Shown here piece after piece: positions 15,436-32,037 of a stretch of DNA of 40,195 bases. The DNA comes from Actinomycetes bacterium (GTDB lineage: Bacteria > Actinomycetota > Thermoleophilia > Gaiellales > Gaiellaceae), in contig JANYJX010000112.1 in assembly GCA_025358355.1 (NCBI GenBank), positions 1-40,195 of the forward strand, given 5' to 3'. The position numbers and the translations under genes are program-made. The notes beneath the pieces are model-generated. The model did no database searches, had not been told where the DNA came from, and saw only the letters and a list, made by a program, of their open reading frames with translations. Position 1 is the stretch's first letter. The number at the start of each line of letters is the position of its first letter.

Positions 15436-15459
15436 CGCAATCGCTTGCGCAATCGATTG
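15436..15459. promoter_or_regulatory. two adjoining LacI-type operators
   Basis: CGCAATCGCTTGCG (15436-15449) is a palindrome apart from two mismatched pairs. It is followed directly by the perfect palindrome CAATCGATTG (15450-15459). Both have the central CG typical of LacI-family sites and share the half-site GCAATCG. They overlap candidate TTG starts of the LacI gene, which suggests autoregulation and possible control of the divergent dehydrogenase. Confidence 0.55.
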
Positions 15460-16491
15460 AATAGCGATCGGCGAGACCCTGAACGTGACGCGACCCTGGC
15501 GGATGTCGCGGAGTACGCGGGCGTCTCGTCTTCGACTGCGTCTCGAGCGCTGAACGGGCGGGGCGAGTTTACGGCGCAGACGCGTGCAGCGGTGCTCGAA
15601 GCGGCCGAAGCGTTGAAGTTCCAGCCGTCCGTGCTCGCGCGATCGCTGCGCACGCGCACCACCTTCACCGTCGGGTTCGTCGTCCCGGATGTCGCGAGCC
15701 CCTTCTACGCCGCCGCGCTGAAAGGCGCCCAAGGAGCGCTCGAGGAATCCGGCTATCGCGTGATGCTGATGAACTCCGGGCAGGAAGTCGCCGGCGAAGT
15801 GACCGCTTTGCAGACTCTGTTGAACCACCAGGTCGACGGGCTGCTGCTCTCGACCACTGGGATCTCGGCCAGCCGGTTCGACGAGACGGTCGGTCGGCGC
15901 GGCACGCCGTGCGTCTTCTTCGACAGCATGCTCGAAGGCGCTGGAGCCGGCGGTGTGCGGATCGACAACGCGCGCGGGATCGATCTCCTCGTCGACCATC
16001 TCGTGGAGCACGGCCACACGGAGATCGCGTTGCTTGCCGGGTCGCTCGAGGAGACGAGCGGGCGCGAGCGGCTCGATGCCTATCACCTCGCGATGGAGCG
16101 ACACGGGCTCACGGTCGGGCCTGACCGCGTGCGCGTTTGTCGCTGGTCGCAAGAGGCGGGGCGCGCCGAGACGAACGCGCTGCTCGGCCTGGCGAATCGG
16201 CCGACGGCGATCGTGGCGTCAAGCGCAGAGCTTGCCGTTGGTTGCCTCGCGGCGTGCCGCGAGCGCGGGTTGCACCTCCCAGGTGATCTCGCGGTTGTGA
16301 GCTTCGACGACCCGTACTTCGGTGCGCTGCTCGAGCCGTCGCTGACCGCTGTTGCCTACGACGCGGGCGCGGTTGGCAGCGTCGCCGCTTCGCTGCTCGT
16401 CGAGGCGATGCGTGAAGGTCACACGCGGCGCGAGCTGAGCATCCCGGTCAATCTGGTTCGCCGCCGCTCGTGCGGCTGCGAGGACGCATGA
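15457..16491 (+). CDS. LacI-family regulator of the importer operon
   Basis: A 344-residue repressor or activator. The N-terminal helix-turn-helix reads TLADVAEYAGVSSSTASRALNG, followed by the hinge helix ending in LARSLRTR. A periplasmic-binding-protein-like sensor domain follows, from FTVGFVVPDVASPFYA to the C-terminus, which ends in a CGC motif. The start is uncertain: TTG 15457 or TTG 15445, neither with a strong ribosome-binding site, both inside the operator region. The next gene's ATG overlaps its TGA (ATGA), so it is the first gene of the transporter operon and probably senses the transported compound. Confidence 0.9.
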   Translation: MNSDRRDPERDATLADVAEYAGVSSSTASRALNGRGEFTAQTRAAVLEAAEALKFQPSVLARSLRTRTTFTVGFVVPDVASPFYAAALKGAQGALEESGYRVMLMNSGQEVAGEVTALQTLLNHQVDGLLLSTTGISASRFDETVGRRGTPCVFFDSMLEGAGAGGVRIDNARGIDLLVDHLVEHGHTEIALLAGSLEETSGRERLDAYHLAMERHGLTVGPDRVRVCRWSQEAGRAETNALLGLANRPTAIVASSAELAVGCLAACRERGLHLPGDLAVVSFDDPYFGALLEPSLTAVAYDAGAVGSVAASLLVEAMREGHTRRELSIPVNLVRRRSCGCEDA

Positions 16492-17600
16492 GCGCGCACG
16501 CAGCGGCAGCTCAGCCGGCGGCGATCACCCTGCGCGGCGTGACGAAGCGCTATGGCGGCCACGTCGCGCTGAAGCCGATCGAGCTTGAGATTGCCGAGGG
16601 TGAGTTCTTCTGCCTGCTCGGTCCGTCCGGCTGCGGCAAGACCACGACGCTGAACCTGATTGGCGGGTTCATCGCGCCGACCGCCGGCGAGATCTTCATC
16701 CGCGACGAGCGAGTCGACCGGCTGCCGCCGCATCGCCGCAGCGTCAACACGGTGTTCCAGTCGTACGCGCTGTTCCCGCACATGACGGTGCGCGACAACG
16801 TCGGCTTCGGGCTCAAGATGGCTCGCATACCGTCGAGCGAATCGGCCGGCCGGATCGAGGAGGCTCTCGGTCTCGTCGGGCTCGAGACCTTTGGCGAGCG
16901 GCTGCCGACGCAGCTCTCCGGCGGCCAGCAGCAGCGGGTCGCGGTCGCGCGGGCGCTCGTCAACCGGCCGGCGGTGCTCCTGCTCGACGAGCCGCTCGGA
17001 GCGCTCGACCTCAAGCTGCGCAAGCGGCTCCAGGTCGAACTCACGCAGATCCACCGCGATGTCGGCACAACCTTCGTCTACGTGACGCACGATCAGGAGG
17101 AGGCGATGTCGATGTCGACCCGCATGGCTGTCCTCAACGACGGCCGGATCGAGCAGATCGGTACGCCCAGTGAGATCTACTACAAGCCGAACTCGCGCTT
17201 CGTCGCGGACTTCATCGGCGAGTCGAACTTTCTCGAGGTCGAGACCGGCTCGCAGAGCGGGGTCGTCCGGCTGGCCGACGGCCGCGGCGTACCGTGCAAC
17301 TCGAGCGCGACGGGTCGTGCGACGCTGATGGTCAGGCCCGAGGCGATCCACGTTTCGGACCCGCACGATGCCCCGGAGTCGTCGCTCAAGGGCAAGATCG
17401 TGCAGACCTCGTTTCTCGGGAGCCAGACGCGCATCGCCGTCAGCTGTGACGGCGTATCGCTCCCGCTTACCGCTTCGCAATTCGGTCGCGAGCGTCTCGC
17501 GGCCCGCGAGCTCACCCCGGACAGGGAGGTATCGCTCTGGTGGGACGCTGATGACGCTGTTCTACTTGCCAAGGAATCGATGGAGGAGGAGGTTGAGTGA
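16488..17600 (+). CDS. ABC importer ATPase, PotA/FbpC-like
   Basis: A 370-residue ATP-binding subunit for an importer of the spermidine/putrescine/iron class. Walker A is GPSGCGKT near residue 45, the Q-loop is in FQSYALFPHMT, the signature is LSGGQQQR near 143-150, Walker B is LLLDEPLGALD, and the H-loop is in VYVTHDQEEA. The C-terminal ~130 residues form the TOBE regulatory domain, with MVRPEAIHV. The gene starts within the LacI stop and is followed by the binding protein and two permeases. The family is usually linked to polyamines, but related systems take up other cations, opines, aminoethylphosphonate or thiamine. Confidence 0.93.
   Translation: MSAHAAAAQPAAITLRGVTKRYGGHVALKPIELEIAEGEFFCLLGPSGCGKTTTLNLIGGFIAPTAGEIFIRDERVDRLPPHRRSVNTVFQSYALFPHMTVRDNVGFGLKMARIPSSESAGRIEEALGLVGLETFGERLPTQLSGGQQQRVAVARALVNRPAVLLLDEPLGALDLKLRKRLQVELTQIHRDVGTTFVYVTHDQEEAMSMSTRMAVLNDGRIEQIGTPSEIYYKPNSRFVADFIGESNFLEVETGSQSGVVRLADGRGVPCNSSATGRATLMVRPEAIHVSDPHDAPESSLKGKIVQTSFLGSQTRIAVSCDGVSLPLTASQFGRERLAARELTPDREVSLWWDADDAVLLAKESMEEEVE
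17582..17592 (+). promoter_or_regulatory. strong ribosome-binding site
   Basis: GGAGGAGGAGG lies nine bases before the GTG at 17602 and favours it over the ATG at 17608 as the start of the binding-protein gene. It sits in the last codons of the ATPase gene and would allow high binding-protein synthesis, as importers usually need. Confidence 0.6.
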
Positions 17601-17601
17601 C

Positions 17602-18702
17602 GTGTCAATGACGGAAGGAAGGCTCAGTCGAGCCGGCCTGCTCAAGGCGGGCGCTGCGGGTGCGCTCGGCCTGTATGCGGCAGGCCCAGCGGCAGCGGCC
17701 GCCCTGCGCTTCGAGTCGACCACGCTGAACTTGCTCACGTGGTCCGACCATTACGCGAACGATCAGCTGAAGGCCGTCAGCAAGCTGTCTGGCCTCCAGG
17801 GTCGGCCGACGCTGTTCAGCGACAACGCCGACGCGTACCTGAAGATCAAGCAAACGGGCAGTCAGTTCGACATCGTCTCGGGTGACGCCTTGTGGGTGCC
17901 GAAGTACCTCAAGGACGGGCTGACAGAGTCGTTCGACCTGTCATCGCTGCCGGTCTCGAAGCAGCTCTACTCGCTCGCGAGGGAGTTCCCGTTCTGGAAG
18001 GACGGCTCGAACTACATGGGCTATCCGTTCTCGTGGTCGACCGTCCAGATCTACTACAACCCGAAGTACGTCACCACGAAGCCCGACTCGTGGCACGCGC
18101 TGCTCGACAAGAAGTACGCCGGGAAGATCTCGCTCGAGAACATCCCGACGGACATGATGGCCATCGCCGCACGGGCAACCGGGGGGAAGAAGCCATACGC
18201 CATGACGAAGGGCGAGATCTCCCGAGCCAAGGCGTATCTGAAGGCGCTGAAGCCGAACGTGCAGAAGCTCGCATCACAGAACAACGAGGTGATTCGCGCG
18301 CTGGCCGACGGTTCGGCGTGGATCGGGGTCACGAACCTCGGCTCCGACGACCGTGTCAAGGACGCCGGCGGGCCGACCGTGCTGCGGGCGTACCCGAAGG
18401 AAGGCACGATCGGCTTCATCGACTCCGAGCAGATCGTGAAGGCGTCGAAGAACAAGAGCTCGTTCGAGAAGTTCGAAAACACGATGCAACAGGCTCCGTG
18501 GATTGCGAAGAACTTCTTGACGAACGGCCGACCGCTGTTCAACGAGAAGGCCTACAAGATCCTGGTCAACACGGGCCACGGTGACCGCGCCCGGCGTCTC
18601 TCCTACAACAAGCCGGAGAACGCGCTGAAGATGACGATCAAAGGCCCTGCCGGAGACGAGCAGGCCTACGTCGACGCGTTCAACGAGGTGTTTGGCGCGT
18701 AG
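17602..18702 (+). CDS. extracellular solute-binding protein, PotD-like
   Basis: A 366-residue binding protein of the type that captures polyamines and related cations outside the membrane. The N-terminus (RLSRAGLLKAGAAGALGLYAAG) resembles the binding-protein leaders of actinobacteria that use Tat or Sec, though with a single rather than twin Arg. Mature features are the start TLNLLTWSDHY, the central SWSTVQIYYNPKYV hinge, and GTIGFIDSEQIVKAS near the C-terminal domain. There is no lipobox Cys. A negatively charged pocket would be needed for a cationic ligand and cannot be judged here. The downstream permease GTG overlaps its TAG. Confidence 0.9.
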   Translation: MSMTEGRLSRAGLLKAGAAGALGLYAAGPAAAAALRFESTTLNLLTWSDHYANDQLKAVSKLSGLQGRPTLFSDNADAYLKIKQTGSQFDIVSGDALWVPKYLKDGLTESFDLSSLPVSKQLYSLAREFPFWKDGSNYMGYPFSWSTVQIYYNPKYVTTKPDSWHALLDKKYAGKISLENIPTDMMAIAARATGGKKPYAMTKGEISRAKAYLKALKPNVQKLASQNNEVIRALADGSAWIGVTNLGSDDRVKDAGGPTVLRAYPKEGTIGFIDSEQIVKASKNKSSFEKFENTMQQAPWIAKNFLTNGRPLFNEKAYKILVNTGHGDRARRLSYNKPENALKMTIKGPAGDEQAYVDAFNEVFGA

Positions 18703-19622
18703 TGGCTAACGCCGAGGTCACTCCCTCGGTGCCTGATCCCCCGGGTGGTCGGAAGACCGCCCGGGGGCTTTCGCTCGGCCGGCTTGGCCAGTACGGCGGG
18801 TTCCTGCCGGCGATCGTCCTGTTCGGGCTGTTCTTCGCGGCGCCGCTCGGGCTGATCGTCGCGTACAGCTTCTGGCAGGTCGTCGACTACAACGTCGTCC
18901 ACGACTGGACGCTCGACAACTACCGCTATTTCTTCAGCGTCAGCACGTACGCGAAGACGTTCTGGGCCACGATCTGGGTGTCGGTTGCGGCGACGGCGCT
19001 GGCGATCGGAATCGCGTTCCCGTTCGCCTACTGGCTCGTGCGCTACATCCCGAAGCGGCTGCAAAAGGTGTTTTTGATCCTGGTGATCCTGCCGTTCTGG
19101 ACGAGCTACTTGCTGCGCGTCTACGCGTGGCTAAACATCCTCGGGCCAGAGGGCGCGATCAACCGCTTTCTGCACTGGATTCACCTGACCAGCCAGCCGG
19201 TCTCGTTCTTCCTCTACGACAGGCCGGCCGTGATCCTCGTGCTCGCCTATCTCTACTTCCCGTTCGCGGCGCTGACCTTGTACGCGTCGCTGGAACGCTT
19301 CGACTGGGATCAGTTCAAGGCCGCGATGGACCTTGGCGCGACGCCGTTCACCGCGGTGCGAAAGATCCTGTTGCCGCAGATCCGGCCGGGAATCACGACG
19401 AGCGTGATCTTCGTCTTCATCCCGATTCTCGGCGAGTACCTGACGCCGCAGCTCGTCGGTGGCGCGAAGGGCGTGATGATCGGCAACCTGATCGCGAACT
19501 TCTTTGTCGGCGCGCAGTACACGCGTGGCGCGGCGGCGGCGTTGCTGATCACGGCGCTGATCGTGGTGCTGCTGATCGTCTTCCGTCGCTCGCTCGAGGT
19601 GAGGGACGCCTATGCCCCGTGA
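18702..19622 (+). CDS. ABC importer permease, PotB-like
   Basis: A 306-residue inner-membrane permease. After a ~28-residue polar N-terminus there are about six hydrophobic helices, the first at 33-55 (FLPAIVLFGLFFAAPLGLIV). The EAA loop that contacts the ATPase reads AAMDLGATPFTAVRKILLPQIRPG near residue 210-232. It pairs with the PotC-like permease immediately downstream, whose ATG lies inside this gene's last codons. GTG at 18702 overlaps the binding-protein stop by one base, implying translational coupling. Confidence 0.93.
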   Translation: MANAEVTPSVPDPPGGRKTARGLSLGRLGQYGGFLPAIVLFGLFFAAPLGLIVAYSFWQVVDYNVVHDWTLDNYRYFFSVSTYAKTFWATIWVSVAATALAIGIAFPFAYWLVRYIPKRLQKVFLILVILPFWTSYLLRVYAWLNILGPEGAINRFLHWIHLTSQPVSFFLYDRPAVILVLAYLYFPFAALTLYASLERFDWDQFKAAMDLGATPFTAVRKILLPQIRPGITTSVIFVFIPILGEYLTPQLVGGAKGVMIGNLIANFFVGAQYTRGAAAALLITALIVVLLIVFRRSLEVRDAYAP

Positions 19623-20448
19623 GCTCGAAGTCGTCTCGCCGCGCGCGGGGCTCATGCGGTTCGCCCTGTCGAGCTGGGCGGCCCTCGTCTACCTGTTCTT
19701 GTTCGTGCCGATCGGGCTGCTCGTTGCGTTCAGCTTCAACTCGAACAAGTACGGCACGTTCCCGTTCACTGGCTGGACGACGAAGTGGTACGGCCAGGTT
19801 TTCGGCGACTACCAGATCAAGGATGCGTTGACGACGACGTTACGGGTCGCGCTCTTCGTGACCATCATCAGCACGATTGTCGGGACCGCTGCTGCGTTCC
19901 CACTCGTGCGTTCGAAGCTCCGGTTCCGCAGCGCCGTACGGGTGGGCATGACGCTGCCGATCATGATCCCGGGGCTGCTGATCGGCGTGAGCCTGCTCGT
20001 GTTCCTGACGAACGTCTTCCACCTACAGCTGTCGGTGTGGACGGCGATCGTCGGGCAGAGCGTTTACACGACGCCGTTCGTGCTGTTGATCGTGGCCGCG
20101 CGGCTGCAGGGGTTCGATCAGTCGCTGGAGCGCGCGGCGAGCGACCTCGGAGCGAACACGTTCAACCGGCTCCGCTACGTCGTGCTGCCGCTGATCGCGC
20201 CGGCGGTCTTTGCGGGCGCGCTGTTCGCGTTCACGCTCTCGCTCGACGAGTTCATCATCACGCTGTTCCTGATCGGCGGCTCGAACACGCTGCCGCTCTA
20301 CATCTACACGCAGGTCAAGTTTGGGATCACGCCTGAGGTCAACGCGCTCGCGACCTTGCTCCTGGGTGCGTCGGTGCTCCTGATCGCGCTGGCGTTTCTG
20401 CTGCCAACCGCGGTGCGCCGCGCGCGGCTCGCGCTGCGCACGCGCTAG
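19612..20448 (+). CDS. ABC importer permease, PotC-like
   Basis: A 278-residue second permease, with helices near residues 20-45, 70-95, 105-130, 140-160, 200-222 and 250-270. The EAA loop reads RAASDLGANTFNRLRYVVLPLIAP. SLDEFIITLFL is the typical PotC signature after it. It overlaps the PotB-like gene by 11 nt and ends the rightward importer operon. Its TAG shares the CTAG at 20445-20448 with the convergent dehydrogenase gene, leaving no room for a separate terminator. Confidence 0.93.
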   Translation: MPRELEVVSPRAGLMRFALSSWAALVYLFLFVPIGLLVAFSFNSNKYGTFPFTGWTTKWYGQVFGDYQIKDALTTTLRVALFVTIISTIVGTAAAFPLVRSKLRFRSAVRVGMTLPIMIPGLLIGVSLLVFLTNVFHLQLSVWTAIVGQSVYTTPFVLLIVAARLQGFDQSLERAASDLGANTFNRLRYVVLPLIAPAVFAGALFAFTLSLDEFIITLFLIGGSNTLPLYIYTQVKFGITPEVNALATLLLGASVLLIALAFLLPTAVRRARLALRTR

Positions 20449-21488
20449 GCGACGTCAGTCCAGGTGCCGCCGGCTCGCGCGCTCGTGACCGCGGCCTCGA
20501 CGAGCGCGACACCGCGCTGCCCATCGGCGAACGTGGGAAACGGGTCGTGCGGCTCGCCGGCGATTGCGGCGTAGACATTGCGGAACGTGTTCTGGAAGGC
20601 ACCGCCGTAGCCTTCGCCGTGCCCGGCCGGGTAGCGCGAGAGCCCACGGGCGGACGGCGCGTTGGTCGCGGGGTCCTTGACGACGAGTTGCGGTGCATCG
20701 GTCGCGCTCCGCGCGAGCAGCTTCGTCGGCTCCTCCTGATCCCACGTCAAGCCGCCGGTCGTTCCCTCGCATTCGAACAGCAGTTGGTTCTTGCGTCCCG
20801 CGACGCCCGCCGAGAGCACGAGCGAGCCCGAGACGTGCGCCCCGAAGCGCAGCAGCAGCGTCGCGTAGTCCTCGAGCGGCCCGCCGGAGAACGAGCGGAA
20901 GTCGGCGGCAACCGCCGTGACGTGGAGGCCGGTGACGTGCTCGGCTAGGTCGAGCCAGTGCGTGCCGAGGTCGCCGACGACGTACGACGGCCCAGATCGA
21001 GCCGGGTCGATGCGCCAGCCGGACGCGGGGAACAGCACGTCGTCGCAGACGTAGCGGCCGTGGACGAACGTGACCTTGCCGATCGTGCCGGCGGCCGTGT
21101 CGGCCCGCATCTGCTCGACCAGTGGGTAGCCGCGCACGTGGTAGCAGGTCGCGCCGACGAGCCCGCGCTCGGCGGCGGCGGCGATCAGCGCGGAGCTCTC
21201 GGCGGTTGTGACGGTGAGCGGTTTCTCGCAGATGACGTGAATCCCGCGTCCGAGTGCTGCGAGTGCCTGCGCTGCGTGGCCGTCGTTCGGGGTGCAGATG
21301 TGCAACGCATCGATCTGCTCCGCGTCGAGCAGCTCGGCGAGGTCGGCGTACGGTCGGCCTTCGCCAAAGCTCTCCGCTCCCGCCAGCGTGCGCCCGCAGA
21401 CTGCGACGACCTCGACCCCGATCGCCCGCAGTGCGATGGCATGCACGCGGGCGATGAACCCGGTGCCGACGATTGCGGCGCGGCTCAT
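20445..21488 (-). CDS. Gfo/Idh/MocA-family oxidoreductase C
   Basis: A 347-residue NAD(P)-dependent dehydrogenase with AAIVGTGFIARVHA at residues 4-17, HICTPNDGHA near 65-75, CEKPLT with the catalytic Lys near 92, and VVGDLGTHWLDLAEH near residue 165-180 in the substrate domain. It is the last gene of the leftward IolE-IolB-IolD-aminotransferase-dehydrogenase operon, and its ATG overlaps the stop of dehydrogenase D (ATGA). The family covers inositol, inosose, glucose, sugar-nucleotide and rhizopine oxidation. The operon favours a cyclitol or cyclitol-derived substrate. Confidence 0.9.
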   Translation of the reverse strand: MSRAAIVGTGFIARVHAIALRAIGVEVVAVCGRTLAGAESFGEGRPYADLAELLDAEQIDALHICTPNDGHAAQALAALGRGIHVICEKPLTVTTAESSALIAAAAERGLVGATCYHVRGYPLVEQMRADTAAGTIGKVTFVHGRYVCDDVLFPASGWRIDPARSGPSYVVGDLGTHWLDLAEHVTGLHVTAVAADFRSFSGGPLEDYATLLLRFGAHVSGSLVLSAGVAGRKNQLLFECEGTTGGLTWDQEEPTKLLARSATDAPQLVVKDPATNAPSARGLSRYPAGHGEGYGGAFQNTFRNVYAAIAGEPHDPFPTFADGQRGVALVEAAVTSARAGGTWTDVA

Positions 21489-22579
21489 CGAGAAGACGCG
21501 AGGAACATCTGCGTCAGCACGTCGATGTCGACGCGCGCCTGCTCGGGCGGTGTCCGGCACGGCGTCCCGTCGACCACGCAGCTGTGGAAGTGGACGAGCT
21601 CGCGCGAGAACGCCTCGTCGTACGACTCCGCGATCCGCACGTCATTTATCCCGCCCGCCGCCTGGCTGCGCCGATAGACCGTCGGGAACTGCTTGAGCCA
21701 CGGCGACGGGAACTCGAGCGTGCGCACCGAGTGGTCGAAGATCAGCGTGATCGTCTCGCGGTACTCGAACGTTTCGAGCACCTGGATCCACGTGCCGTCG
21801 AAACGCGCGCCGTTCGCGAGCCGCACCGAGCCCGAGACCGCGCGGCCTTCGTTCCACCAGTCGCCGGCGATCACCGTGGCCGGCAGCGGCTCGCCCATCC
21901 GCTCGAGCAACCCGTGCACGGCGTTGAGGTCGTGGAGGAGACTGCCGAGGAAGCTCTCCGAGAATGCGCGCACGACATCCGGGTCGCCCGAGCCGACCGC
22001 CGCCTCTACCTGCTCGGCCTCGCCCTTGCGCGTCGCGTCGATCAGATCCTGCGGGACATCGGTGCCGCGGACGACATCATCCGGGCCGAAGTACGGCGCG
22101 AACTCCGGGTCGTTGACGACGACGCTGATGTAGCGCAGCTCGTCTGCGGACTCTGGCAAGTCGGCGAGCAGCGCCTCGTACGCCGGGTCGTAGCGCTTCA
22201 TCGTGCCGACCTGGACGACGCGCCCGGCGCGGTCGCGCGTGGCGATGATCGCGTCGGCGTCGGCGAGCGTGATGCACATCGGCTTCTCGACGAGCACATG
22301 CAAGCCGGCTTCGAGCGCGGCGATCACAACCTCGGCGTGCGTCCCGGCGGGCGAGCAGACGATGACTGCGTCCAGCCCGCCGGCGTCGAGGAGCGAGCGA
22401 TAGTCGGCGTGGAGGCCTGCGATCCCGTAGCGCGCGCCAAGCGCCTCGCGCACGATCTGGCTCGGCTCGGCAAGCGCGGCCAGCTCGAACCGCTCGCGAT
22501 GCGCCGAGAGGTACGGGATATGCATCGCCTGCGCGACGAGCCCGCCGCCGACGACGCCCATCCTCAGCTTCTGGCTCAC
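21485..22579 (-). CDS. Gfo/Idh/MocA-family oxidoreductase D
   Basis: A 364-residue dehydrogenase with a Rossmann start (MGVVGGGLVAQAMHIPYL), IVCSPAGTHAEV, then VEKPMCITLADAD with the catalytic Lys near residue 98. QVGTMKRYDPAYEALL marks the end of the nucleotide domain. The C-terminal domain includes HDLNAVHGLL in place of the usual DxxxH motif, and is more divergent than in A-C. The GTG at 22579 overlaps the aminotransferase stop by 4 nt. Two different dehydrogenases in one operon suggest two oxidation steps or an oxidation-reduction epimerisation. Confidence 0.88.
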   Translation of the reverse strand: MSQKLRMGVVGGGLVAQAMHIPYLSAHRERFELAALAEPSQIVREALGARYGIAGLHADYRSLLDAGGLDAVIVCSPAGTHAEVVIAALEAGLHVLVEKPMCITLADADAIIATRDRAGRVVQVGTMKRYDPAYEALLADLPESADELRYISVVVNDPEFAPYFGPDDVVRGTDVPQDLIDATRKGEAEQVEAAVGSGDPDVVRAFSESFLGSLLHDLNAVHGLLERMGEPLPATVIAGDWWNEGRAVSGSVRLANGARFDGTWIQVLETFEYRETITLIFDHSVRTLEFPSPWLKQFPTVYRRSQAAGGINDVRIAESYDEAFSRELVHFHSCVVDGTPCRTPPEQARVDIDVLTQMFLASSR

Positions 22580-23823
22580 GCGAGCACCCCGTTCGCGACC
22601 TTGCTAAACGCGAGCGCCAGCTCGTCGAGGTCCTGCTCGTCGCACAGCGGCGACAGGTCTATGTGGATCGCACGGCCGACGAGATCGAGCGTGCGCGGGC
22701 AGTCCGGCGCGGGGCGGCCGGAGCGCACGATCGCGTCGAGCACCGGCTTCCAGTACGGGTAGATGTGCAGGTCGATGAAGTCGGGTGAGTAGATGCGCAT
22801 CGCGCCGACTCCCTCCGCCTTGAGCGCATCGACTGCGTCGGCCGCGAGCGCCGCCGTCTCCGCGAAGGCGATCAGGCAGATTCCGGCATCGCCGCCTTCG
22901 TCTGTACCGCGGCGCAACGTCAGGCCGGGAAGCTCCGCGACGCGCTCCGCTAGCCAGTTCTGGTTTGCGCGCATCCGCTGGAGCAGGCCGTCGAGCCGCC
23001 CGAGCTGCACGCGTGCGACCGCGCCCTGAAGCTCGGAGGCGCGGAAGTTGTAGCCGGGGAACTGCGGCAGGCCGATCCCGCGTCGCACCGAGCCGGCACA
23101 GTCGTGGACGTCGATCGCCATGTCATAGACATCGTCGCGATTGGTGATCAGGACGCCACCCTCGCCGGTGGTGAGGATCTTGTTGAACTGGAGGCTGAAC
23201 GCGCCGGCGTCGCCGAAAGTGCCGAGCCGCTTGCCGTTGAACGTCGCACCTGCCGCCTGACAGACGTCTTCGATCAGCGCCAGCTCGTGGTCGCGCGCGA
23301 TCGCGGTGAGCGCGTCCATGGCGGCCGGCGCGCCGCGCATATGCACCGGGAGCACAGCCTTCGTCTCGGGTGTGATCTTGGCTGCGACATCGACCGGGTC
23401 GAGCGTCAGCGAATCGTCGACCTCGGCCAGCACCGGAATCGCCCCCGTTGCGAGCACCGCGTTGGCGGTCGCGTTCCACGTGTAGGCGGGGATAATTACC
23501 TCGTCGCCCTGGCCGACGCCCGCGCCGATCAGGCCGCAAATCAGCGCCGACGAGCCGGCGTTGACGGCGAGTGCGTGCGTCGCGCCGAGGTGTGTCGCGA
23601 ACTCGCGCTCGAACGTCGCGACTTCCTGCGGGCCGTCGCCGACGCCGTAGTAGCGGAAGACGTTCTTGCTGCGGAGGACGCGCGTGACGGCCTCGACCTC
23701 TTCTTCTCCGATCTCCATGCCGCCGGGGAACATCGGCGGTTCGGGACGGGTGCGGGCGGGCGGGCCGCCATCGCGGGCAAGGCGTTGGTCAAGCACGGGT
23801 GGGTCGAGGCGCGTTTCGGTCAT
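22576..23823 (-). CDS. DegT/DnrJ/EryC1/StrS-type aminotransferase
   Basis: A 415-residue PLP enzyme of the sugar/cyclitol aminotransferase fold type I. NAGSSALICGL binds the cofactor phosphate, an EDVCQAAGA motif gives the ring-contacting Asp, and SLQFNKILTTGEGG holds the PLP-forming lysine. HDCAGSVRRG and GYNFRASELQGAVARVQL are further family blocks. Members interconvert keto and amino sugars, and one branch makes scyllo-inosamine from scyllo-inosose. Here the gene sits between an IolD gene and two dehydrogenases in a catabolic-looking operon. The reverse direction, removing an amino group from an aminocyclitol, is a possibility but unproven. ATG 23823 is chosen over upstream ATG 23832 and GTG 23841. 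Confidence 0.9.
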   Translation of the reverse strand: MTETRLDPPVLDQRLARDGGPPARTRPEPPMFPGGMEIGEEEVEAVTRVLRSKNVFRYYGVGDGPQEVATFEREFATHLGATHALAVNAGSSALICGLIGAGVGQGDEVIIPAYTWNATANAVLATGAIPVLAEVDDSLTLDPVDVAAKITPETKAVLPVHMRGAPAAMDALTAIARDHELALIEDVCQAAGATFNGKRLGTFGDAGAFSLQFNKILTTGEGGVLITNRDDVYDMAIDVHDCAGSVRRGIGLPQFPGYNFRASELQGAVARVQLGRLDGLLQRMRANQNWLAERVAELPGLTLRRGTDEGGDAGICLIAFAETAALAADAVDALKAEGVGAMRIYSPDFIDLHIYPYWKPVLDAIVRSGRPAPDCPRTLDLVGRAIHIDLSPLCDEQDLDELALAFSKVANGVLA

Positions 23824-23866
23824 GCGAGCCATTCTGGACACAGGTCCGCGCTATCGCAAACGACGC

Positions 23867-25702
23867 TCACCAGCCGACCCGCTGGTGGCTCTTGCCGTCG
23901 ATCTGGCGCGCTCTTGCGGCATCGACTTCGGGGCGCGTGGAGCCCTCGGGAACGCCTACTTCCCAGAACGCGCCGCCGCTCGTCCACGCGTGCGGCGCGG
24001 TACGGATCGCGATCACCGTCGTCCGGTCGGCGGCTCGCGCTCTCGTGAAGGCGTTTTCCAAATCGGCGATGGTTGTGGCCGCCTCCGCGATGCAGCCGAG
24101 CGATAGCGCGTGCGCCACCCAGTCGACCTCGACGCGATTCGGGCCGACGTCCTCGAACAGGTTGTTGAACGCGACGTTGCCCTGGCCGACCTGTAGCCGG
24201 TCGATCACCGCGTAGCCGCCGTTGTCGCAGAGCACGACGATCAGTTTGCGGCCGCTGAGCACCGAGCTGAGCAGATCCGAATTCAGCATCAGGTACGAGC
24301 CGTCGCCGACGAAACAGATCACGTCGCCTTCGGGCCGCGCGATTCGCGCTCCCCAGGCGCCGGCGATCTCGTAACCCATGCATGAAAAGCCGTACTCGCA
24401 GTCGAACGTGGCGACGCCTTTCGAGAGCCAGTTGATGTTCAGCTCGCCGGGGAGCCCGCCGGCCGCGGTCAGCGCGTAGTCGTCGGTGCTGGCCAGGCGG
24501 TTGACGGCTCCGACGACCTGGGCGTAGGTCACCGGCTCGGTCGCTGGCGCGGTGTTCACCGCGATGAACGTGTGGAAGGCGTCGTGCTCGGCGCGAGTGC
24601 GCTCGACCCACGTCGCGTCCGCCGTCCAGCCGGTGAGTTGCTCCCCGAGCTCGGCGAGGCCTTCGCGCGCGTCAGCGACCAGCGGCAGCGAGAGATGTTT
24701 CGTCGCATCGAACCGCCCGACGTTGAGCGTCACGATGCGCGTCTCCTCGCCGAAGATCGTCCACGAGCCGGTCGTGAAGTCCTGCAGCCGAGTCCCGATC
24801 GCAAGAACGACATCCGCCTCCGCGGCGAGCCGGTTTGCGTGGTCGCAGCCGGTAACGCCGATCGGGCCGACGTAGTTCGGATGCTCGGCGAGCAGGCACG
24901 ACTTGCCGGCGACGGTTTCGGCGACCGGGATGCCGTGCGCTTCGGCGAACGCGCGCAGCTCAGCCTCGGCGAGCGAGTAGTGAACGCCGCCTCCTGCGAT
25001 CAGCAGTGGCCTTTGTGCGGAACGGAGAGCCGCCGCGGCCGCTTCGAGCTGCCTCCGGTCGGGCCGCGGCCGTCGGAGTTCGTGAACGCGCGTTTCAAAC
25101 AGCGCGGCCGGGTAGGCGTACGTCTCGGCCTGAATGTCTTGCGGCAGGCCGATGAACGCCGGGCCGCAGTCGGCCGGGTCGAGCATCGTTTCGACGGCAA
25201 GCGGCAGCGACTGCACAACCTGCTCGGGCCGGACGATGCGATCCCAGTAGCGCGTCACCGCGCGGAACGCGTCGTTGACCGTGACCGATGGCGCGTCGAA
25301 GTGCTCGACCTGCTGCAGCACGGGATCGGGAATCCGACTCTGGAAGGTGTCGCCGGAGAGAATCAAGATCGGTAGGCGATTGGCGTGAGCGACCCCCGCA
25401 GCGGTGACCATGTTCGTCGCGCCTGGCCCGACGGATGAGGTCGCGACCATGATCTGGCGGCGACGCCGTGCTTTCGCGAAAGCGACCGCTGCGTGCGCCA
25501 TGCCTTGCTCGCTTTGCCCGCGGTACGTCGGCAGGACATCGCGCGCTTCCTCGAGCGCACTGCCGAGGCACGTCACGTTGCCGTGACCGAAGATCGCAAA
25601 CACGCCGGGGAAGAGGGGGACTTCTTCGCCGTCGACGATCGTGCGCTGCGCGACCAGGAACCGGACGATCGCCTGCGCCATCGTCAGCTCGACGGTCTTC
25701 AT
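23867..25702 (-). CDS. iolD: 3D-(3,5/4)-trihydroxycyclohexane-1,2-dione hydrolase
   Basis: A thiamine-diphosphate enzyme of 611 residues that opens the cyclitol diketone ring to 5-deoxy-glucuronate in inositol breakdown. The N-terminal pyrimidine-binding domain has the activating Glu ~65 in YRGQSEQGMAHAA. The central domain follows. The C-terminal diphosphate-binding motif is VGDGSYLMLNSDLLSS...CDNGGYAVI. GYEIAGAWGARIA precedes it. The length matches IolD and the next gene is iolB, its product's user. The ATG at 25702 overlaps the iolB stop by 4 nt. This is the strongest pathway marker in the window. Confidence 0.96.
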   Translation of the reverse strand: MKTVELTMAQAIVRFLVAQRTIVDGEEVPLFPGVFAIFGHGNVTCLGSALEEARDVLPTYRGQSEQGMAHAAVAFAKARRRRQIMVATSSVGPGATNMVTAAGVAHANRLPILILSGDTFQSRIPDPVLQQVEHFDAPSVTVNDAFRAVTRYWDRIVRPEQVVQSLPLAVETMLDPADCGPAFIGLPQDIQAETYAYPAALFETRVHELRRPRPDRRQLEAAAAALRSAQRPLLIAGGGVHYSLAEAELRAFAEAHGIPVAETVAGKSCLLAEHPNYVGPIGVTGCDHANRLAAEADVVLAIGTRLQDFTTGSWTIFGEETRIVTLNVGRFDATKHLSLPLVADAREGLAELGEQLTGWTADATWVERTRAEHDAFHTFIAVNTAPATEPVTYAQVVGAVNRLASTDDYALTAAGGLPGELNINWLSKGVATFDCEYGFSCMGYEIAGAWGARIARPEGDVICFVGDGSYLMLNSDLLSSVLSGRKLIVVLCDNGGYAVIDRLQVGQGNVAFNNLFEDVGPNRVEVDWVAHALSLGCIAEAATTIADLENAFTRARAADRTTVIAIRTAPHAWTSGGAFWEVGVPEGSTRPEVDAARARQIDGKSHQRVGW

Positions 25703-26592
25703 GGTCGTGCTCCGGCGGCAGTTGTCCCGGCGTGAGTTGTCATGGGGCAGCGCGAGTCGGTCGCCTGACTTACCCACGAGTCGCGGATCCAGCCGTAGCG
25801 CGGATCGTCGGCGATCTCCATCCGTCGCTCGGCCGCCGGGCCGGCCATCACGTTGAGGTAGTAGAGGGGATAACCCGGCGCCGCGACGCACGGGCCGTGG
25901 TAGCCGCGCGGGACGAGGAAGATATCGCCGTCGGCAACAGTCACGGTCGCATCGATCGAGCTGTCGGCCGTATAGGTGCGGTGCAGCGCAAGCCCGTCCG
26001 GCGCGTACGCGGTCGTCCCGGCTCGGCCGATGCGGAAGTAGTAGATCTCCTCGTTCCACACCGGGCTGCCGGCCGTGTCGTCGTGCTTGTGCGGCGGGTA
26101 CGACGACCAGTTGCCGTCGGGCGTGAGCACCTCGCAGCAGATCAGCTTGTCGGCGTCGGGGAACGCCTCAGGTGTCATGAAGTTCGTCACCTGACGCGTG
26201 GCTTGGCCGGCGCCGCGGAGCTCGACCGCGACATCTTCGGCTGCGACACGTACCGCGTCGTAGCGCCGGATCGCACGCGCGGAGGCGAGTGCGAGCTCGC
26301 AGCCGGCGGCGCTCGTGAGCCGCAGCTCGCTGTCGATCGGCGCGTAGGCCCAGTCTGTGACGCGTGCGAAGACGGTCTCGCGGCCGTCGAGCCCGAGCCG
26401 CTTGCCGGCGATCTCGACGACGGACGAGCCGCCCGAGAGCGGCACGATCGCCATCTCGTCTTCGCCGGTCGTGAGGGTGAGCGACGCACCCGGCTCGAGC
26501 TGGACGACTCTGAGTCCGCAGTACACCCAGCCGGCCGACTCCGGCGTGACGAGAACCTCGGCGCCGCCGGTCGGCACATGAAGCTCGTGCAT
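25699..26592 (-). CDS. iolB: 5-deoxy-glucuronate isomerase
   Basis: A 297-residue bicupin enzyme that converts 5-deoxy-glucuronate to 2-deoxy-5-keto-gluconate. The metal site is seen in SYPPHKHD near residue 167-172 and EEIYYFRI near 185, with a further conserved block VPRGYHGPCVAAPGYPLYYLNVMAG. Length and order of blocks match IolB. It overlaps iolD by 4 nt and follows the IolE-like gene by 2 bp. The last ~20 residues are an Ala/Thr-rich tail of no clear role. Confidence 0.95.
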   Translation of the reverse strand: MHELHVPTGGAEVLVTPESAGWVYCGLRVVQLEPGASLTLTTGEDEMAIVPLSGGSSVVEIAGKRLGLDGRETVFARVTDWAYAPIDSELRLTSAAGCELALASARAIRRYDAVRVAAEDVAVELRGAGQATRQVTNFMTPEAFPDADKLICCEVLTPDGNWSSYPPHKHDDTAGSPVWNEEIYYFRIGRAGTTAYAPDGLALHRTYTADSSIDATVTVADGDIFLVPRGYHGPCVAAPGYPLYYLNVMAGPAAERRMEIADDPRYGWIRDSWVSQATDSRCPMTTHAGTTAAGARP

Positions 26593-26594
26593 TC

Positions 26595-27491
26595 CTATGC
26601 GGACTCGTCTTGAAGCGCCCGCAGGAAGTCGATGCTGCGCTGGACGCTTGCGGTGGCGGCACGCTCGGGCGAGACATCGTCCGCGCTCAGCGAGATGTCC
26701 TGCTCGAGCACGTACCAGCCGTCGTAGCCGGCCTTCTCGAGTGCGCGCACCGTCGCGGCAACCGGCGCGTCGCCGTCGCCGAGTGGCCTGAACAGCCCTT
26801 CCTTGACGGCCGGCACAAGCTCGATCTCGCCCGAGCGAAGCCGGCCCCCGATTGCGTCGTCGGCGTCCTTCAGGTGCGCGTGCGCGATCCGCGAGCCGGC
26901 CGCCTCCGCGAACTCGACGGGATCGGTCTGGCCCAGAGCGAGATGGCCAGTGTCGAGGCAGAACAGCACTTCGCACTCTTCGAGCGTGCGCCAGACTTCA
27001 TCGCGCCGCTCGGCGAGCGTGCCCCAATGCGGGTGCAGCACGTGCGTCAGGCCGTGGTCGTGCGCGAGCTCGTCGAGCCGCAGAAAGCTGTCGTAGACCC
27101 GCTTCCATTCGTCGCGCGAGAGCGGCCTCGGGGCGGACCAGTCGAAATCGAGAACGAGCGCCGAGACGAGGAACGACGCGCCGAGCGCCTCGAACCGCGT
27201 GGCCGTCTGCCGAGCCGACGCCATCGTTGCAGCCAAGGCGCCGGAGTCGTGGAGCACAACAGGCAGGAAGCCGCCGATCAGCTGCAGTCCGTGCTCTTCG
27301 AGGAGCCTCCCGATCGCGGTCGCGTCGTCGCCGAGGTACCCGTCGGGGCCAGCCTCGGTCGCGGTGATCCCGAGCGAGCTCATCTCCGGCAGCACACGCT
27401 CCGGCGGCAGCTGGACGCCCCAACCCGGGACCTCGCAGAGTCCCCAGGAGGTCGGCGCGCCGGCTAGACGATCGAGAATCGGTCTGGAGAT
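26595..27491 (-). CDS. inosose dehydratase-like TIM barrel (IolE/MocC-like)
   Basis: A xylose-isomerase-like TIM-barrel protein of ~295 residues. The N-terminus reads LDRLAGAPTSWGLCEVPGWG, close to IolE, which dehydrates scyllo-inosose to the diketone used by IolD. Metal ligands are suggested by TEAGPDG, LHPHWGT, LDTGHL, HAHLKD and the late YVLEQD. Related family members act on rhizopines or as isomerases, so IolE activity is likely but not certain. No ATG, GTG or TTG lies in frame upstream of the conserved start. ATC 27491 has GGAAGAG six bases before it, and ATT 27479 is the other option. ATG 27383 would delete a conserved strand. It heads the leftward operon, downstream of an 18-bp palindromic operator. 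Confidence 0.85.
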   Translation of the reverse strand: MSRPILDRLAGAPTSWGLCEVPGWGVQLPPERVLPEMSSLGITATEAGPDGYLGDDATAIGRLLEEHGLQLIGGFLPVVLHDSGALAATMASARQTATRFEALGASFLVSALVLDFDWSAPRPLSRDEWKRVYDSFLRLDELAHDHGLTHVLHPHWGTLAERRDEVWRTLEECEVLFCLDTGHLALGQTDPVEFAEAAGSRIAHAHLKDADDAIGGRLRSGEIELVPAVKEGLFRPLGDGDAPVAATVRALEKAGYDGWYVLEQDISLSADDVSPERAATASVQRSIDFLRALQDESA

Positions 27492-27521: not shown

Positions 27522-27539
27522 CGTTAGAGCGCTCTAACG
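27522..27539. promoter_or_regulatory. 18-bp perfect palindromic LacI-type operator
   Basis: CGTTAGAGCGCTCTAACG reads the same on both strands and has the central CG of LacI-family operators. It sits between the divergent IolE-like gene and the LacI gene, about 30 bp from the first and 10-50 bp from the second. It is well placed to control both promoters. Confidence 0.8.
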
Positions 27540-27591: not shown

Positions 27592-28584
27592 ATGGACGAC
27601 GTCGCACTGGAGGCCGGCGTCTCGCGGGCACTCGTTTCGCTCGTCTTGCGCGAGAGCCCGAAGGTGAGCGACGAGCGACGCGCGCGGGTCGTCGCGGCGG
27701 CTGCGAAGCTCGGCTACCGCCCGAATGCTTGGGCGCGTGGGCTCGCGAGTCACCGCAAGAAGACGATCGGCGTGCTGCTCAACGAGCTGCACAACCCGTT
27801 CTACGCCGAGATCATGGATGGGATCGATGCCGGCGCGGCTGAGGCCGGCTACCGCGTCGTTCTCGGCACGGCTGGCAGCCGGCCGGGCGGCGAGCAGACG
27901 GCGCTCGACACGTTCCTCGAGCTGCGCGCCGACGGAGCCGTGTTGGTTGGTCCGCGGCTCGCGACCGCCGAGATCGCGCGAGCGGCTGCGTCGATGCCGG
28001 TGGTCGTCGTCGCGCGCGGCGTGCGCTCGAAGGCGGTCGACTCGATCACGAACGATGAGCGCCACGGTGCAAGGCTCGTCGTCGAGCATCTCGTAGGGCT
28101 CGGGCATCGTGCGATCACACATGTCGACGGCGGGAGCGGCGCCGGCGCGGCGGCGCGGCGCGCGGGTTACGAGGAGGCGATGCGCGGGGCGAGCCTCGCG
28201 CGTGAGATTCGCGTCGTCGCCGGCGACTACACCGACCTCGCAGGACTCGCCGCCGCGGACACGATTCTTCGCTCGCGGCGGCTGCCGACCGCGATCTTTG
28301 CCGCGAACGACCTCGCCGCTGCCGCGATGATCGACCGCTTCGAGACTGCCGGCCTGAGTGTTCCGGCGGACATCTCGATCGTCGGCCACGACAACACGTT
28401 CCTCGCTGCCCTCCACCACATCTCGCTTACGACGGTCGACCAGCCGCGGCCCGAGATGGGTCGTCGCGCGATGGCGCTGCTCGTCGAGCGCATGGACGGG
28501 GTGCGAACGACATCCGTGAATGTGCGCGTCACGCCGTCGCTCGTCGTCCGCTCGACGACCGGCCCGCCACGGCCGGCCAGCTAA
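27592..28584 (+). CDS. LacI-family regulator of the iol-like operon
   Basis: A 330-residue (from ATG 27592) regulator. The helix-turn-helix reads MDDVALEAGVSRALVSLVLRE, with the hinge at GYRPNAWARGLAS. The sensor domain runs from KTIGVLLNELHNPFYAEI to the C-terminus, with IFAANDLAA and a DQPRPEMGRRA block. The ATG start leaves no residues before helix 1, which is tight. An ATT at 27550, preceded by GGAGAGG, would add RRPPERVKREPT and give a more usual N-terminus. The gene is divergent from the IolE-like gene across a perfect palindrome, so it very likely represses that operon until a cyclitol intermediate binds. Its stop is adjacent to the convergent mntH stop. Confidence 0.9.
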   Translation: MDDVALEAGVSRALVSLVLRESPKVSDERRARVVAAAAKLGYRPNAWARGLASHRKKTIGVLLNELHNPFYAEIMDGIDAGAAEAGYRVVLGTAGSRPGGEQTALDTFLELRADGAVLVGPRLATAEIARAAASMPVVVVARGVRSKAVDSITNDERHGARLVVEHLVGLGHRAITHVDGGSGAGAAARRAGYEEAMRGASLAREIRVVAGDYTDLAGLAAADTILRSRRLPTAIFAANDLAAAAMIDRFETAGLSVPADISIVGHDNTFLAALHHISLTTVDQPRPEMGRRAMALLVERMDGVRTTSVNVRVTPSLVVRSTTGPPRPAS

Positions 28585-29923: not shown

Positions 29924-30315
29924 ATTTCGAGCCAGGCCACGGCGGTTATCTCGTGGAACTCTGTTGTGAGCACCTCCCAGAAGCGGCCGCCGTCGCGCGA
30001 GAGGTGGATTCGACTGCGGCTCGCGTAGAGCATCAGGTCGGGATGCGTGGGCGAGATGGCGATCGCGTGACCGGGTGGAAGGCCCGCTCCCGCCTCGCGC
30101 CAGGTCGAGCCGCCATCGCGAGAGATCACGAGCGGCGGGCGGCGCGCGACGAGCGCGACAATCGTCGCCCCGTTCTGATCGGCGGCGACGAGTAGCGGTA
30201 GCGCGAGCGTCACATCCGGCCGGGCGAGGCTGAGATCGGCATCGTGCTCGATGATCTCGTCCTCTTCGAGATCGAAGACGACAACGCCGTCAGCGCTTTC
30301 GACGGCCGCGGTCAC
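29920..30315 (-). CDS. short BNR/Asp-box repeat protein
   Basis: A 131-residue protein with two Asp-box motifs (SRDGGSTWREA near 65-75, SRDGGRFWEV near 105-114), the beta-hairpin turns of sialidase and YCF48-type propellers. A full propeller needs 250 or more residues, so this is a partial propeller, an oligomerising fragment or a remnant. It has no signal peptide. GTG at 30315 overlaps the upstream kinase stop by 4 nt, so it is in the iolC operon. Function unknown. Confidence 0.7.
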   Translation of the reverse strand: MTAAVESADGVVVFDLEEDEIIEHDADLSLARPDVTLALPLLVAADQNGATIVALVARRPPLVISRDGGSTWREAGAGLPPGHAIAISPTHPDLMLYASRSRIHLSRDGGRFWEVLTTEFHEITAVAWLEI

Positions 30316-31133
30316 GTCTGGGTCTGGAGCCGATCTTCCAGCATCTCGGCGACGATCCGGCTCGCGCTCGCAGCGGCTGCGACTGGGTCGCCGCCGTCGC
30401 TTCGCGCGACGATGTACGAGACCATGAACACGTCACCGGCGCCGGTTGTCTGCACCCCGAGCACCGGTCGGGCTGCGGACACCGCGGTCTCGACGCCGTC
30501 CGCATAAACGATCGAGCCACGCGAGCCAAGCGTCAGCAGCACCTCCGGAACGCCGAGCCCGAACGCGACTTCGGCGTCGAACGTCCGCGGTGCCGCGATC
30601 ACCTCGGCCTCGTTCTCGGCCAGCTTCAGGACGGTGATGTGCCGGAGCACAGCCGGGTCGTAGTCGCCGTTTTCGAGCATCGGGCCGACCTGTGGGACAC
30701 GGACGAGACCTTGCCCGTCGACCGAGACCTTCCGCCCGCCGGCAGCCAGCGCGGCGAGCGTCTCGGCGGGAAAGTCGCTGCGCAGCAGCGGCGCCACGTG
30801 CACCCACTCGACGCTTGGCTTGAGTACGGCGGCATCGGCCGGCTGCCAAATCGGGCCGATCTCGGTGACGGTCATCGCTCGATCCTCGCCGCTGTAGTCG
30901 AGCGCGAAGCCGCTTGTCGCGTCGGCCGGCAGCAGCGTGATCGGCTGCACCACCGCCGCGAGTGCTGGCCCGAAGATCGCGTCGTCAGCGTGTGCGTGGC
31001 GTGTTGCGATCTGGCCGGCTCGACCGACTCGGCGCAGCGCCTCGACAGCGAAGAAGGCGCAGCCGCCCGGGCGTGGCGCGCCGCCATCGACGCGGTCGCG
31101 CGAGAGGTTGCCGACAACCGCGACGCGAGGCAT
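30312..31133 (-). CDS. PfkB-family carbohydrate kinase
   Basis: A 273-residue ribokinase-fold kinase. The N-terminal signature is short and unusual (VVGNLSRDRVDG...RPGGCAFFAVEALRR). The C-terminal PfkB signature TTGAGDVFMVSYIVA holds the catalytic Asp near residue 235, and LTLGSRGSIVY binds nucleotide. It lies 10 bp after iolC, so it probably phosphorylates a sugar or cyclitol in the same pathway. Inositol or nucleoside kinases of this fold are alternatives. The substrate is not assignable. Confidence 0.85.
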   Translation of the reverse strand: MPRVAVVGNLSRDRVDGGAPRPGGCAFFAVEALRRVGRAGQIATRHAHADDAIFGPALAAVVQPITLLPADATSGFALDYSGEDRAMTVTEIGPIWQPADAAVLKPSVEWVHVAPLLRSDFPAETLAALAAGGRKVSVDGQGLVRVPQVGPMLENGDYDPAVLRHITVLKLAENEAEVIAAPRTFDAEVAFGLGVPEVLLTLGSRGSIVYADGVETAVSAARPVLGVQTTGAGDVFMVSYIVARSDGGDPVAAAASASRIVAEMLEDRLQTQT

Positions 31134-31143
31134 GGGCGCCAGC

Positions 31144-32037
31144 CTACGTCGCGGCAGCGAGTGCGGTCTCGAGCTCTTCGAGGCTCGGCATCGCCTCGGA
31201 GCACGCGAGCCGGCCCGCGACGATCGCGCCCGCGACGGTTCCCCGCCGCACCGCGTCGACGAGGTCGTGGCCGCTCAGCAGCGCTTGGCCGACCGCCGCG
31301 GCGAACGAATCCCCGGCGCCCAGGCCGTTGATGACTTCGACCGGAACCGGCGGGATATCGGTGCGCGTGCCGCGGTCGAACACGGTCGCGCCGCGTTCGC
31401 CGCGCTTCAGCACGAGCCGCGGCACGTCCTTCACCTGGGCTGCCGCGACCTCTTCCTCGTTGCCGATCACGATGTCGGCCGAGGCGGCAGCCTCTGCGGC
31501 GAGAGCGGGATACAGAGCAGCGTCGTCCCACAGCGACGGCCGCCAGTCGAGATCGAAGATCGTCGTCCCGCGATGCGCGGCGAGGGCGGCGAGCGTCGTC
31601 TCGCGGCTCGGCGACTGCGCGAGCCCCGTCCCAGTCGCGTACAGGAGCGGAGCCGCCGCAACCGTCTCGGCGTCGTAGTCCTCGGGCGAAATCTGCCAGT
31701 CGGGAGCGGTCGGTCGCCGGTAGAACGTGATTGGGAAACGATCCGGCGGCCACACCTCGCAGAACGTCGGCGGCGTCGGCCAGTGCGGGTCGGTGCGCAG
31801 GAACCCGACATCGACGCCTTCGCCTTCCAGCCACTCGCGGACGAAGTCGCCGTGCCCTTCGGCACCGACGCGCGAGACGATCGCCGGCCGCACGCCGAGT
31901 CGGGCGAGCCCCGTCGCAACGTTGCCTGCGAACCCGCCTACGAAGCGCGTGTACGTGCTGACGTGGCGCAGCGGTGTAGAGAGCTGGTTCGGGTAGAGAT
32001 CGATCCCGACCCGGCCGATGACGACGGCGTCGATCAC
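31144..32037 (-). CDS. iolC: 5-dehydro-2-deoxygluconokinase (PfkB family)
   Basis: A 297-residue kinase that phosphorylates 2-deoxy-5-keto-gluconate, the product of IolB. The N-terminal block VVIGRVGIDLYPNQ...TPLRHVSTY followed by FVGGFAGNVATGLARLG is the typical IolC start. DLDWRPSLW is a further shared block. GLGAGDSFAAAVG contains the catalytic Asp near residue 240. It starts with GTG at 32037, two short gaps from its neighbours. It completes the IolG-E-D-B-C series apart from the aldolase IolJ and dehydrogenase IolA, which are not in the window. Confidence 0.88.
   Translation of the reverse strand: MIDAVVIGRVGIDLYPNQLSTPLRHVSTYTRFVGGFAGNVATGLARLGVRPAIVSRVGAEGHGDFVREWLEGEGVDVGFLRTDPHWPTPPTFCEVWPPDRFPITFYRRPTAPDWQISPEDYDAETVAAAPLLYATGTGLAQSPSRETTLAALAAHRGTTIFDLDWRPSLWDDAALYPALAAEAAASADIVIGNEEEVAAAQVKDVPRLVLKRGERGATVFDRGTRTDIPPVPVEVINGLGAGDSFAAAVGQALLSGHDLVDAVRRGTVAGAIVAGRLACSEAMPSLEELETALAAAT

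Follow-up and report, generated by a model that had tools for sequence, protein, structure and literature searches.

A candidate deaminating aminotransferase in a conserved uptake cassette of actinobacterial genomes with the inositol pathway

Here, we describe an aminotransferase (AT) gene embedded in an inositol catabolic (iol) locus and suggest, based on comparison across genomes, that the gene is part of a larger object, i.e., a conserved, separately regulated cassette for uptake and deamination that was found in no genome lacking the iol pathway. The window, by which we mean the whole stretch of 40,195 nucleotides analyzed, is part of a contig in a 2.9-Mb actinobacterial genome assembly (G000:C27). 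AT lies on the minus strand at 22576 to 23823 if translation starts at an ATG, or in an open reading frame (ORF) at 22576 to 23841 if it starts at an alternative GTG. In addition to AT, the cassette would comprise the LacI-family regulator LacI1, a PotADBC-type ATP-binding cassette (ABC) importer, the IolG-like dehydrogenase iolG_c, and the Gfo/Idh/MocA dehydrogenases GFO1 and GFO2. We propose, at what we consider an even chance, that AT is the deaminating enzyme of this inducible catabolic cassette, which would feed the inositol pathway. Our best guess for the likeliest substrate is an amino-inositol, e.g., inosamine or a streptamine-like aglycone.

Comparison of loci shows the unity of the cassette, its dependence on an iolD-containing genome, and its own predicted operator. 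First, the set of AT, GFO1, GFO2, a PotABCD-type importer, LacI1, and an IolG-like dehydrogenase recurs in nearly all loci with AT orthologs (62 to 79% identity; L008, L009/L031, L010/L032, L011, L030, and L012). Five loci of the window's family have the cassette together: the window, L008 (genome G305), L010/L032 (G189), L011 (G299), and L009/L031 (G039). The order AT-GFO1-GFO2 followed by converging potC-potB-potD-potA is identical in the first four, and there LacI1 and iolG_c lie beyond the pot genes wherever the contig extends that far. The pot genes of L009/L031 are eroded to fragments, L030 (G063) has a partial cassette with a creatininase-family gene in the place of GFO2, and in the Ilumatobacteraceae locus L012 the genes are rearranged to run in one direction as LacI-AT-GFO1-GFO2-potA-potD-potB. 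In every locus AT comes first in the AT-GFO1-GFO2 unit, and it ranks with the most strongly conserved enzymes of the cassette; GFO1, GFO2, and iolG_c each form one well-supported group across loci in a dehydrogenase tree, in which StrI of L065 sits on a very long branch so that its placement is not interpreted. Because the set survives rearrangement and spans bacterial families, we argue that it serves a single function.

Second, seven of the 103 genomes of the family have an AT match at E ≤ 1e-90, six of them with the cassette and one (G229) with a divergent AT only. A search found iolD in 20 of the 103 genomes and, together with G299, in which iolD is frameshifted and immediately precedes AT (L011), the total is about 21. 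All six cassette genomes contain iolD (hypergeometric p about 4e-5, a value not corrected for relatedness). In G189, iolD is on a contig other than that of the cassette, and two copies of iolD are present, likewise on other contigs, in the L012 genome. No iolD above cut-off was found in the genomes of the cassette-free AT relatives L013 to L015. The sister genome G003, of the same genus, combines its iol operon with a sugar-type ABC importer; no AT-GFO1-GFO2 lies between or after its iol genes, a difference from the window.

Third, the cassette has a predicted operator of its own. The region that separates LacI1 from iolG_c holds an exact copy of the palindrome CGCAANCGNTTGCG in the window (15436), L031, and L009 and a copy with a single mismatch in L058 and L011; another place where the palindrome occurs is upstream of AT, in L010/L032. 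Exact matches are expected by chance at 0.017 per 40 kb. From this recurrence, we predict a LacI1 operator, CGCAATCGCTTGCG, at 15436 to 15449 in the divergent LacI1/iolG_c promoter.

The sequence between iolD and AT bears on how AT is expressed. As the initial annotation had it, AT follows iolD at a distance of 43 bp (iolD stop codon 23869-23867 to the AT ATG) and overlaps the downstream dehydrogenase by 4 nt, with GTGA common to the AT stop codon and the GTG start of GFO1; GFO1 and GFO2 are in turn joined by an ATGA overlap. The co-transcription with catabolic genes deduced from this arrangement is likely. However, the case for co-transcription with iolD is weakened because AT keeps a promoter-like element within the 43-bp gap: TGTCCAGAATGG (23829 to 23840, minus strand), with a −10-like CAGAAT, recurs with minor variation in the window, L008, L031, L011, and L032, and as CGCCAGAATGG in L030. 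The element lies 6 to 11 nt 5' of the likely AT start and, because the reading frames differ between loci, it is conserved as DNA rather than as protein. We read it as a putative −10 region with a near-leaderless start. Comparison with L031, L011, and L032 points to GTCGTTTGCGAT (23853 to 23864) as a probable decayed half of a LacI1 operator upstream of AT. Thus, AT probably has its own promoter, to which read-through from iolD would at most add in the window and L008.

AT has the DegT/DnrJ/EryC1/StrS aminotransferase fold with the catalytic lysine. Its NCBIfam matches are members of this superfamily (E to 1e-49), all below cut-off. The AlphaFold2 model has a predicted local distance difference test (pLDDT) score of 83, and the 50 top PDB rows all belong to this family or to dehydrase relatives (Z 38 to 46). 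The pyridoxal 5'-phosphate (PLP) lysine K215, in the motif FNKILTTGEGG (FNK..TTGEGG), is invariant among the orthologs and the clade, and the histidine of the dehydrase branch is not present at that site. Among solved structures, KdnA (PDB 5k8b) is the closest both in sequence (196 bits, 35% identity) and in predicted fold (Z 45.7 versus 42.1 for the next entry).

A tree of 33 rows, with thin reference sampling, MosB, NtdA, and StsA left out and several partial PDB rows, unites AT with its relatives in a single group, which falls on the same side as KdnA and some proteins of proteobacteria. The aminocyclitol aminotransferases (an StsC-like protein from a StrI/StrB1 locus, BtrR, and RbmB) form a separate clade (support 100/99), and the nucleotide-sugar aminotransferases (PerA, WbpE, and six other paralogs of the window genome) lie apart from AT as well (100/95). 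The phylogeny does not bear out the kinship with L-glutamine:scyllo-inosose aminotransferases that the initial annotation had considered, and the opposing outcome it named, clustering with nucleotide-sugar enzymes, did not appear either; AT would seem to be neither of the two types. KdnA, the 8-amino-8-deoxy-3-deoxy-D-manno-octulosonic acid (Kdo) aminotransferase of Shewanella, uses a free, non-nucleotide sugar and differs from AT in being biosynthetic, acting in lipopolysaccharide formation; we know of no iol or importer context for it.

The proposed reaction has its parallels elsewhere. StsC, BtrR, and RbmB share superfamily, fold, and PLP lysine with AT, and deamination by AT would be their type of reaction reversed, but they are located in antibiotic biosynthesis clusters. 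Hyg8 and Hyg17, which make the aminocyclitol of hygromycin A, are an aminotransferase and a Gfo/Idh/MocA inositol dehydrogenase paired as AT and GFO1 are, but they are biosynthetic and part of a large antibiotic cluster. MosB, described as an aminotransferase homologue, converts inososes to inosamines with glutamate (PMC6668481). Together with the mos/moc system of Sinorhizobium meliloti, in which rhizopine is a source of carbon and nitrogen, it is a precedent for the chemistry that we propose for AT. The rhizopine catabolic genes mocRABCDEF include no such aminotransferase in the published list, and the function of MocC is unknown (PMC10107442). The moc system uses MocR and the binding protein MocB (PMC10107442), whereas the window has LacI-type regulators and a PotD-type binding protein.

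Because the binding protein of a sugar-type importer (L008 query) had no match in the window genome, in a search made without a positive control, the Pot-type importer is the visible way in, and its type points to a cationic ligand. In a weak alignment read by hand, the window PotD keeps W34 and D257 of Escherichia coli PotD, has E171 replaced by D, and carries H, L, I, N, and F in place of Y37, Y85, D168, W229, and W255, respectively; the numbering and the polyamine-binding roles of these residues are those that we take to hold for the E. coli protein. Most of the aromatic clamp apparently being lost, the window PotD is probably not a polyamine binder. Its predicted structure (pLDDT 35) gave no clue to the ligand from the fold.

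We suggest the following scheme. A small cationic, amine-bearing cyclitol or sugar would enter via the Pot-type importer, and AT would pass its amine to a keto acid to give a keto-cyclitol. GFO1, GFO2, and iolG_c, all of the inositol dehydrogenase superfamily, could then relocate or modify the keto group through redox steps to yield 2-keto-myo-inositol (scyllo-inosose), which IolE, IolD, IolB, and IolC, as assigned to their families by sequence, would degrade. The setting backs the degradative role raised in the initial annotation, by the importer, the LacI repressor with its operator, iolD in every cassette genome, and the lack of biosynthetic partners among the scanned genes; the substrate and the direction of the reaction we infer. 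More tentatively, as a possibility rather than a probability, we put forward that the cassette is a dedicated amino-cyclitol pathway (for inosamine or an aminoglycoside aglycone) of uncultured soil actinobacteria. It would include the first degradative aminotransferase of the DegT/StrS fold, take up its substrate through a repurposed polyamine-type importer, and feed iol.

Several observations weigh against the proposal that AT deaminates a substrate for the iol pathway. In the tree, with its few references, AT is outside the StsC/BtrR/RbmB clade. Relatives with 46 to 53% identity to AT lie in clusters without iolD, so its clade is not cyclitol-specific, and in L012 and L032 some core iol genes lie apart from the others. 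Transaminases are reversible, making the biosynthetic direction possible. Were scyllo-inosamine the substrate, the three dehydrogenases would be superfluous, AT alone giving the substrate of IolE. Finally, neighboring aminotransferase and Gfo genes are very common (15,139 cases; PMC10949010); for this reason the AT-Gfo pair alone means little, and it is the importer, the regulator, and the dependence on iolD that carry the argument.

Among the alternatives, catabolism of an amino sugar that is not a cyclitol, e.g., a 3-amino-3-deoxy sugar, by a Gfo/Idh/MocA enzyme and AT via a 3-keto intermediate is unlikely but deserves to be taken seriously. The top-scoring family of GFO2 in a profile scan is levoglucosan dehydrogenase, GFO1 has relatives in haloarchaeal sugar-acid loci, the AT relatives L013 to L015 lie outside iol genomes, two of them adjoining sugar ABC transporters, and KdnA works on the keto form of the sugar acid Kdo and not on a cyclitol. 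Common induction, or the use of part of the iol enzymes, would then account for the linkage to iol, but this leaves the presence of iolD in every cassette genome and the IolG-like enzyme of the cassette unexplained.

Biosynthesis, in which inositol or an imported cyclitol is oxidized and then aminated to an aminocyclitol, as by StrI/StsC or Hyg17/Hyg8, is improbable. The textbook way to make an aminocyclitol pairs an aminotransferase with a Gfo/Idh/MocA enzyme (PMC10949010; StsC-StrI-StrB1 locus of L065), but here an importer and a repressor with its operator lead the set, ring-opening iol genes are co-located, and AT is outside the aminocyclitol clade. Moreover, no aminocyclitol kinase, amidinotransferase, glycosyltransferase, nucleotidylyltransferase, or nonribosomal peptide synthetase (NRPS) was found nearby among the scanned genes, and none of the antibiotic biosynthetic partners whose absence the initial annotation had remarked on is visible among the scanned genes of the window.

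We consider it more improbable still that the cassette serves an amine-free inositol isomer or cyclitol and that AT has a side role in detoxifying amine analogues or disposing of nitrogen. Three dehydrogenases fit isomer conversion, and LacI regulation is typical of neutral sugars; however, the conservation of AT and its place at the head of AT-GFO1-GFO2 in all loci, as well as the polyamine type of the importer, speak against this reading. A nucleotide-sugar aminotransferase for wall polysaccharide that adjoins iolD by chance is very hard to credit: AT is of the same superfamily and matches the LegC, PseC, and ArnB models of NCBIfam, far below cut-off, but it lies outside the clade of PerA, WbpE, and the six paralogs, nucleoside diphosphate (NDP)-sugar genes were not seen among the scanned neighbors, and the association with importer, regulator, and iolD is conserved.

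On the minus strand of the window, the gene order is iolE, iolB, iolD, AT, GFO1, GFO2. GFO1 (21485 to 22579) and GFO2 (20445 to 21488) both have the EKP motif. The plus-strand operon LacI1-potA-potD-potB-potC converges on GFO2, with a 4-nt overlap at potC, and consists of LacI1 (15457 to 16491, its TTG start being an estimate), the potA-type ATPase gene (16488 to 17600), the potD-type solute-binding protein gene with the apparently altered pocket (17608 to 18702), and the potB-type (18702 to 19622) and potC-type (19612 to 20448) permease genes. iolG_c (14371 to 15345, minus strand) diverges from LacI1. As in bacterial iol operons, iolE, iolB, iolD, iolC, and iolG-like genes occur with a LacI regulator. 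IolD (23867 to 25702, minus strand; TIGR04377, 824 bits, cut-off 715) and IolB (25699 to 26592, minus strand; TIGR04378, 279 bits, cut-off 205) pass the curated NCBIfam cut-offs. IolE (26595 to 27491, minus strand; 112 bits versus 290), iolG_c (221 bits versus 355 for IolG), and IolC (31144 to 32037, minus strand; 295.5 bits versus 300) score below theirs, with the best match being the right family for each. The start of iolE is unsure: no ATG, GTG, or TTG lies 5' of the conserved N-terminus (APTSWGLCEVPGW), which an ATT/ATC start or an assembly error may explain. A second regulator, LacI2 (27592 to 28584, plus strand), diverges from iolE, and the perfect LacI-type palindrome TTAGAGCGCTCTAA (27524 to 27537), identical in G003 (L051, 5465), is a predicted operator of the iolE/LacI2 promoter. 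A scan of the window genes, which covered all but a few small ORFs, yielded no nucleotidylyltransferase, no NDP-sugar dehydratase, and no glycosyltransferase.

Other genes and loci deserve mention in their own right. GFO3 (13265 to 14374), a levoglucosan-dehydrogenase-like gene, adjoins iolG_c and has a relative within the G003 iol operon, between iolB and iolD. A PfkB-family gene (30312 to 31133) adjoins iolC, matches only the C-terminal part of its family, and has a relative in the G003 iol locus. Creatininase-family genes lie near AT in L030 (3311 to 4117) and L032 (7050 to 7868), the latter weakly similar to IolN, the 3-dehydro-scyllo-inosose hydrolase. We rejected the alternative IolN/IolM/IolO inositol route: the L032 gene scores 64 bits versus the IolN cut-off of 245, the L030 copy has no IolN match, and a zinc dehydrogenase (2589 to 3620) considered as IolM is of the class III/formaldehyde type. 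The haloarchaeal GFO1 relatives (L061 and L062) lie beside a mandelate racemase-type enzyme, an aldolase, and a thiamine pyrophosphate enzyme, probably in a sugar-acid pathway. On rhizobial plasmids (L023 and L024), AT relatives (38 to 39% identity) form a conserved unit with a glucose-methanol-choline (GMC) oxidoreductase, a phosphopantetheinyl transferase, and NRPS/polyketide synthase genes, possibly an uncharacterized natural product cluster; these neighbors look biosynthetic, and we set the relatives aside as a clue to the function of AT. L065 (5965 to 11011) is on a Streptomyces plasmid, where IS5 elements flank a small group of StsC, StrI, StrB1, and GMC oxidoreductase genes.

The literature searched, which consisted mostly of papers available without subscription, yielded no DegT/StrS aminotransferase with a catabolic role in an iol locus, and the papers found name no enzyme that removes the amine of inosamine in rhizopine degradation. 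The characterized members of the DegT/StrS-fold family encountered here are biosynthetic, and a degradative member would be new. With its defined genes, its repressor and predicted operator, and its binding protein, the cassette makes the substrate accessible to direct binding assays. Altogether, the cassette and the iol capacity of its genomes suggest a previously undescribed route by which uncultured soil actinobacteria may consume an amine-bearing sugar or cyclitol; if the substrate is an amino-cyclitol, these bacteria could feed on rhizopines or the cores of aminoglycosides.

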